From NCBI GenBank assembly GCA_903898675.1, contig CAIUGM010000014.1, forward strand, positions 62,001 to 126,000: DNA of 64,000 nucleotides, in the 5' to 3' direction. Source of the DNA: an uncultured Verrucomicrobiota bacterium (GTDB taxonomy: Bacteria > Verrucomicrobiota > Verrucomicrobiia > Opitutales > Opitutaceae). The notes below the pieces were generated by a model, which had not been told where the DNA came from, did no database searches, and saw only the letters and a list, made by a program, of their open reading frames with translations. A program made the translations under genes and the position numbers. Shown here one piece after another: positions 17,429-18,808 of the stretch. How positions within the stretch are numbered: position 1 is the first letter of the stretch; each line of letters begins with the position of its first letter.

Positions 17429-18808
17429 ATGGCTGCCAACGACCCCGCGCCCCACCGCATCCTTGTTGCGGACGATCAACCCGACGTGCTCGAAGCCCTG
17501 CGCCTGCTGCTCAAGGCCGAGGGTTACCAGATCGAGACCGCCAAGTCCCCCGCCGCCGTGCTCAAGGCGATCTAGGCCCGCGACTTTTCGCTGGCGATCA
17601 TCGACCTCAACTACGCGCGCGACACGACCTCGGGGCAGGAAGGCCTCGACTTGCTCGCGAAGCTGCAGGCCGCGGACTCCACGCTGCCCGTGGTCGTGAT
17701 GACGGCGTGGGCCAGCGTCGAGATCGCCGTCGAGGCCATGCGCCGCGGCGCGAAGGACTTTGTGACCAAGCCGTGGGAAAACCCGCGCCTGCTTTCGATC
17801 GTCAAGAACCAGATCGAGCTCGCCGGCGCCGTGCGCGCCTACCGCCGCCTCGAGCAGGAAAACCAGATTCTCCGCGGCAAGGGCGGGCCGAACCTGATCG
17901 CCCAGTCACCCGCCATGCGCCCGGTGCTGGAAATCATCTCCCGCGTCGGCCCGTCCGACGCGAACATCCTCATCACCGGCGAAAACGGCACCGGCAAGGG
18001 CGTCGTCGCCCAGGCCCTGCACGCCGTCTCCGTGCGCGCCGGCAAGGCTTTCATCTCCGTCAACATGGGCGGCCTCCCCGAGGGCGTGTTCGAGAGCGAG
18101 CTCTTCGGCCACGTCCGCGGCGCGTTCACCGACGCCAAGGCGGACCGCGCCGGCCGCTTCGAGCTGGCCGACGGCGGCACGCTGTTCATGGACGAGATCG
18201 GCAACATCCCGATGAGCCAGCAGGCGAAGATCCTGCGTACGCTCGAGACGGGGGAATTCGACCGCGTCGGCTCGTCGCGCACCTACCGCGCGAATGTCCG
18301 CCTCATTTCCGCGACCAACTCCGACCTGCCCACCGAGGTCGCCGCGGTCGATCCAAACCAGCCGATCTCGTTTTTCCAGACGCTCGAGACCGGGCTCGCT
18401 CAATCGCTCGGCGTGCAGCAGATCGTCGCGACGCTGACCGCGGTCTTCGCCGGGCTGGCGCTGGCCCTCGCCGCCGTGGGACTCTACTCCGTGCTGGCCT
18501 ATTCCGTCGCCCAGCGCTCGGTCGAGATCGGCATCCGCATGGCGCTCGGCGCGCAACGCGGCCAGGTGATTTCCCTCGTGATGCAAAGCGGCCTGAAACT
18601 CGTCGCCCTCGGCGTGGTCCTCGGCCTCGGCGCCGCCGCGGGGGCCGCGCGGCTGATCCAGACGCTGTTGTACTCCGTCCAGCCGCTGGACCCGCTGGTC
18701 TACGGCGGGGTCGCCCTGCTGTTTGTCGCCATCGCCGCCCTGGCCTGCCTCGTCCCGTCGCTGCGCGCCTCGCGCATCGACCCGCTGGTCGCGCTGCGGG
18801 CGGAGTAA
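17429..18808 (+). pseudogene. Chimeric pseudogene: sigma54-type response regulator fused to the C-terminus of an ABC permease
   Basis: From the ATG at 17429 one frame encodes a receiver domain (VADDQPD near 13-19, predicted phospho-Asp in LAIIDLNY, Lys in VTKPW) and then an NtrC-type AAA+ domain with Walker A GENGTGKG, GAFTDA in place of the sigma54-contacting GAFTGA, and FMDEIGNIP. A TAG at 17573-17575 stops codon 49; CAG would restore a normal receiver. Around 18341-18350, after LISATNSDLPTEVAA, the frame passes without a break into VDPNQPISFF and the last FtsX domain of an orphan-type ABC permease (three membrane helices, ending SLRASRIDPLVALRAE). The AAA+ C-terminal half, the DNA-binding domain and most of the permease are missing. 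A deletion joining two neighbouring genes explains this; an assembly error is the alternative. Confidence 0.85.

Follow-up and report, generated by a model that had tools for sequence, protein, structure and literature searches.

An in-frame regulator-permease chimera as the probable scar of a lost two-component/ABC-export locus in an Opitutaceae genome

We analysed a stretch of 64,000 nucleotides (the window), covering 62001-126000 of contig C14 in the genome (G000) of an uncultured member of the Opitutaceae, in which a single forward-strand frame at 17429-18808 joins the front of an NtrC-type response regulator gene to the end of an ADOP-type ABC permease gene. We are highly confident that this frame is the scar of a large deletion that removed a two-component/ABC-export locus and left the regulator front joined in frame to the permease tail; the chimera is very probably a remnant that no longer works as a gene, and genome decay of this kind is ordinary. 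The window thus offers a clean and apparently recent snapshot of the loss of a whole two-component/ABC-export locus in one lineage, in a genus where 15 of the 20 genomes searched keep the regulator. It also shows how automatic annotation could record an in-frame 'domain fusion' as a new protein architecture although it is a scar, and it draws attention to a conserved sigma54-like putative promoter and small ORF that precede the regulator.

Composition of the chimeric frame

Translation of 17429-18808 gave 460 codons, including the final stop and one internal stop, with the domain order receiver, truncated sigma54 AAA+ domain and C-terminal 154 residues of an ADOP-type ABC permease. When the internal TAG was read as Q, Pfam placed Response_reg at residues 11-125, Sigma54_activat at 156-306 and FtsX at 339-452, while NCBIfam aligned the tail (18344-18805) to positions 650-803 of the 803 positions of TIGR03434, the ADOP model. 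The first-pass annotation had described a receiver and AAA+ domain running straight into the final FtsX domain of a permease, with a nonsense codon at codon 49 that breaks the receiver, and both observations hold. The in-frame TAG occupies 17573-17575 on the forward strand, and codon 49 was GAG or GAA in every relative read (16/16 and 7/7 in two sets). A reading of amber as a sense codon was not supported; the MacB gene of the window itself terminates in TAG, at 16755-16757. The open frame alone is weak evidence because another forward frame is open at the same place for 383 aa (17707-18858), and a random joint retains the frame one time in three. In a plasmid search no record covered 80% of the frame 17429-18808 (448 records gave partial matches), and a literature search on such a fusion or pseudogene found no report, from which we do not claim absence from print.

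The 5' remnant of the regulator gene (17429-18347, forward strand), as delimited by Pfam and by the end of the DNA matches, encodes a receiver and a truncated AAA+ domain. With the TAG read through, it shows the receiver and sigma54-interaction domain of the NtrC-family sigma54-dependent regulators, to which the intact relative in genome G012 adds a lid and a Fis-type HTH; the window copy differs from this family in ending inside the AAA+ core and in carrying the TAG in its receiver. The intact G012 regulator is 455 aa long with Sigma54_activat at 156-322 (profile positions 1-167), AAA_lid_14, and HTH_8 at 412-453, whereas the chimera reaches profile positions 1-151 of the 168 of Sigma54_activat only, falls short of a complete AAA+ core and contains neither AAA_lid_14 nor HTH_8. 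For the intact G012 gene the nearest NCBIfam models were ntrC, AtoC and a PEP-CTERM-box regulator, none of the 25 shown reaching its cut-off. The sigma54-contact loop, usually GAFTGA, reads GAFTDA in the window and in the three relatives compared (G011, L047 and L054).

The 3' remnant (18344-18808, forward strand; Pfam FtsX, TIGR03434) consists of the last 154 codons of an ADOP permease gene with the final FtsX domain and the stop. Although the tail matches the C-terminal positions of the ADOP duplicated permease model, the window retains just one fifth of the protein, and the scores of 195.2 bits for the chimera and 189.5 bits for the tail alone fall below the full-model cut-off of 622.3. The ends of homologous permeases were 69-80% identical to the tail at the DNA level in 10 rows.

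Parental genes and the joint

Of the 20 same-genus genomes searched, 15 contain the regulator at 84-90% DNA identity, and in all of these the DNA match stops at 18343-18347; a close match was absent from the other five (G002, G006, G008, G013 and G019). We read 16 regulator loci, comprising these 15 and that of G023, and the gene was 455-456 codons long in 14 of them, the G020 copy being cut by a contig end. A protein search returned closest named records labelled Opitutaceae, Lacunisphaera, Opitutus and other Verrucomicrobia, and in the regulator tree the window grouped with G015 and G005 (support 97/95). The G011 regulator (L120, G011:C57; L014) has an in-frame TAG of its own at codon 303, adjoining the codon of the window's joint; the remainder of its frame past that TAG is readable and its kinase is open.

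The joint itself lies at 18338-18347 on the forward strand and reads GTCGCCGCGG, a sequence compatible with both parents when relatives of each were read directly. The two parents are in the same frame here and usually encode Val-Ala-Ala or a close variant of it, the left parents mostly as GAG-GTC-GCC-GCC-GGC and the right parents as GTG-GCG-GCG-GTG-GA or close forms. Among the left rows V-A-A was encoded by 11 of 15 in one set and by 6 of 7 in another, with V-T-A or V-A-S in the remainder; among the right rows, of which G048 and L106 represent one contig, it was encoded by 6 of 10, with V-A-S in the remainder. The GTCGCCGC-like stretch that the two genes had been proposed to share is plausible on both sides, with the exact GTCGCCGCGG present in one of the 15 (G016) and one of the 7 (G126) left rows and in one of the 10 right rows (G097), but most relatives depart from the 10 bases at third codon positions. 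The stretch common to both parents may therefore have comprised up to 10 bases or may have been shorter.

Among the full-length matches listed in the family search, those on the regulator side ended mostly at 18345-18347 (range 18327-18350) and those on the permease side started between 18309 and 18356. No match spanned the joint in any of the 20 other genomes of the genus or, among the matches listed (two candidates scored per genome), in any of the 149 others of the family. Fusion candidates were followed up at 14 of 79 protein-match loci, which were mapped. L047 and L054, whose protein matches to query residues 1-385 had made them candidates for further independent fusions, were rejected because their match ranges start within the MacB gene upstream and the FtsX domain of MacB accounts for the second match; both regulators continue past the joint position. 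The Pseudoalteromonas/Algicola matches (L080 and L082-L084) were likewise rejected, a separate permease lying upstream of the regulator.

Gene order and loss of the locus

To the left of the chimera the window carries an HlyD-type adaptor (13329-14741), an ABC ATPase (14768-15529) and an intact MacB-type ABC permease (15543-16757, forward strand; Pfam MacB_PCD and FtsX), and to the right an intact TPR-repeat protein gene (18894-19760, forward strand); gene order in relatives makes MacB the left and the TPR gene the right synteny anchor. The order in the window is MFP-ABC-MacB-small ORF-regulator front/permease tail-TPR-DCC-methyltransferases-ABC2, compared with MFP-ABC-MacB-regulator-histidine kinase-HlyD-type adaptor-ABC ATPase-ADOP permeases-TPR-methyltransferases-ABC2 in G012, G010 and G004, whose blocks hold five, five and six ADOP permeases, respectively. 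Relative to these genomes the stretch missing from the window amounts to approximately 18.6, 21.3 and 20.8 kb. MacB and the TPR gene are separated by approximately 2.1 kb in the window and by approximately 21-23 kb in the three relatives. Comparison of the syntenic locus in close relatives, as suggested in the first-pass annotation, thus revealed an intact regulator, histidine kinase and permeases between the breakpoints in all three. That annotation had pictured a deletion of the regulator's C-terminus, probably a histidine kinase, and most of a permease; the gene order supports a deletion, though a larger one than was guessed, extending to an HlyD-type adaptor, an ABC ATPase and several ADOP permeases in their entirety.

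Parts of this arrangement recur more widely. MacB precedes the regulator in 12 of the 14 same-genus loci mapped; it does not in G005 (L028, 9.8 kb read) and was not found within the 1.5 kb read before the G015 regulator. In both G015 and G005 the regulator is followed consecutively by kinase, adaptor and ABC ATPase. In G012, G010 and G004 the TPR gene comes immediately after the final ADOP permease of the cluster, and in G014 it follows an ADOP run. Among the listed matches to the tail, the best one shares contig and strand with the regulator and is located downstream of it in G004 and G010, as it also is in six genomes from outside the genus (G048, G056, G084, G097, G105 and G072), in which the distance is approximately 15-50 kb; in G012, G003, G016, G023, G011, G014, G001 and G007 it sits on another contig or elsewhere in the genome. 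Full collinearity on one stretch was found in 3 of the 10 genomes mapped, such that intact and collinear parents occur in G012, G010 and G004 and not in every relative. The TPR gene was absent from the stretch read after the regulator in G003, G016, G023, G018, G017 and G001, no ADOP permease was present in the 35 kb read after the G016 regulator, and in G011 the two sides of the locus are on separate contigs. The immediately ancestral arrangement was found in no genome. Permease content and order are fluid among the relatives, and more than one step may therefore have led to the joint.

Orthologues of the G012 kinase were present in 10 of the 14 same-genus genomes searched (G012 itself and nine others at 77-94%), and among those 14 the kinase holders are exactly the regulator holders. 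The window genome (3.52 Mb in 40 contigs, with completeness given as 99.95%) contains no orthologue of the kinase, the adaptor or the ABC ATPase, the best matches being 35%, 27% and 51%, respectively. Since none of the three has an orthologue elsewhere in the genome, we conclude that they were lost, and we reject relocation for all three. One permease of the block does survive in the window genome, at 23811-26234 (forward strand), where an intact ADOP permease scores 907.5 bits against TIGR03434 (cut-off 622.3) and shares 78-80% protein identity with permeases inside the block of G012, G010, G004, G017 and G011. This gene sits after ABC2, between an ABC ATPase (23057-23743) and a TolC-like gene (26675-28252); in G048 a 71% homologue of it directly follows the homologue of the tail.

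Origin of the joint and alternative explanations

The putative ancestor would have carried the small ORF, the NtrC-type regulator, a sensor kinase, an HlyD-type adaptor, an ABC ATPase, several ADOP permeases and then the TPR gene. A deletion, which we infer to have been a single one, would have had its left breakpoint in the regulator at codon ~305 and its right breakpoint in a permease close to the block's right edge, ~154 codons before that gene ends, and a short stretch common to both genes (at most ~GTCGCCGCGG, encoding V-A-A in the same frame) presumably joined them in frame. Deletion-fusion pseudogenes form at short direct repeats, and the chimera resembles them in that two genes meet at a possibly shared stretch with loss of the genes between; it differs in that the fusion happens to keep the frame, an outcome with a chance of one in three.

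In the kept part of the regulator, dN/dS was 0.018-0.120 between the window and 14 same-genus relatives, against a mean of 0.076 (0.011-0.167) among those relatives, and at the residues invariant among the 14 the TAG was the sole change in the window. For the tail, dN/dS was 0.22-0.39 between the window and three relatives and 0.34-0.49 among those relatives. There was no sign of relaxed selection by dN/dS in either part, which suggests that the deletion event was probably recent. The low values would fit a very recent event and do not in themselves demonstrate loss of function. The further proposal that decay followed the deletion was not borne out: dN/dS is not raised and one disabling base is seen, and the TAG could have arisen in the receiver before or after the deletion.

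Were the joint an error of assembly or binning, two separate places would have been stitched together and the TAG would be a consensus error, an explanation that can appeal to the 40-contig draft state of the genome and to the presence of the joint in one genome only. We consider it very unlikely, as both sides keep the order and strand seen in G012, G010 and G004 with collinear flanking genes, and the ~10 bases that the parents could share are too short for usual assembly overlaps. Moreover, the kinase, adaptor and ATPase orthologues lie on no contig despite the near-complete genome, and twelve neighbouring genes at 8.5-28.3 kb have uninterrupted frames.

Even less credible to us is expression of the chimera, perhaps from TTG 17651, to give a functional 385-residue AAA+-to-membrane fusion; the first-pass annotation had raised such a fusion from an internal start, and we found no evidence for it. 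The frame is open over 17651-18808, and AGGAAGG (17637-17643) stands 7 bases before the TTG, but this motif falls within receiver coding sequence; similarly, the low dN/dS of the regulator part is in keeping with a functional product but can be inherited from the intact gene. A start at TTG 17651 would leave just profile positions 61-110 of Response_reg, thereby dropping the first half of the receiver with what we take to be the phosphorylated aspartate, and the product would also be without the last 17 Sigma54_activat positions, the lid, the HTH and most of the 803-position permease model. The joint, furthermore, is kept by no relative searched. We would give hardly any weight to the variant in which the 385-residue protein from TTG 17651 acts as an inactive, membrane-anchored half-AAA+ protein that interferes with other NtrC-type regulators or permeases.

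Under the preferred reading of a deletion scar, any product of the chimera is most likely inert, because most of the permease would be missing from it, together with the DNA-binding domain, the lid and the last part of the AAA+ core. The residues GKFRQDLLFRLN, which the intact gene encodes just past the joint position, presumably carry the arginine fingers, which in NtrC-type proteins are needed for ATP hydrolysis between subunits.

The front of the locus

Upstream of the regulator remnant, a small conserved ORF of 90 aa (17050-17322, forward strand) is intact in the window, with counterparts before the regulator in 14 of the 17 relatives read and no Pfam or NCBIfam match at E 0.001. Twenty-seven bases before it stands a sigma54 (-24/-12)-like putative promoter, TGGCACG-CCGC-TAGCA (17007-17022, forward strand), that agrees with 11 of 12 positions of the consensus. 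We scored the window and 14 further loci, excluding G015, L047 and L054, in which no small ORF was seen, and in all 15 the highest-scoring site within 150 bases upstream of the small ORF matched 9-12 of 12 positions and lay 23-49 bases from it. Among 300 single-base shuffles, 0-0.7% scored as high in 14 loci and 4% did so in G005. The presence of a sigma54-like site before the small ORF in all loci scored suggests that the lost regulator may have driven its own operon. In the gap after MacB (16758-16881) we also observed an inverted repeat with 37-base arms that are 84% complementary, built of GATTCTCGATT/GATTTTCGATT units.
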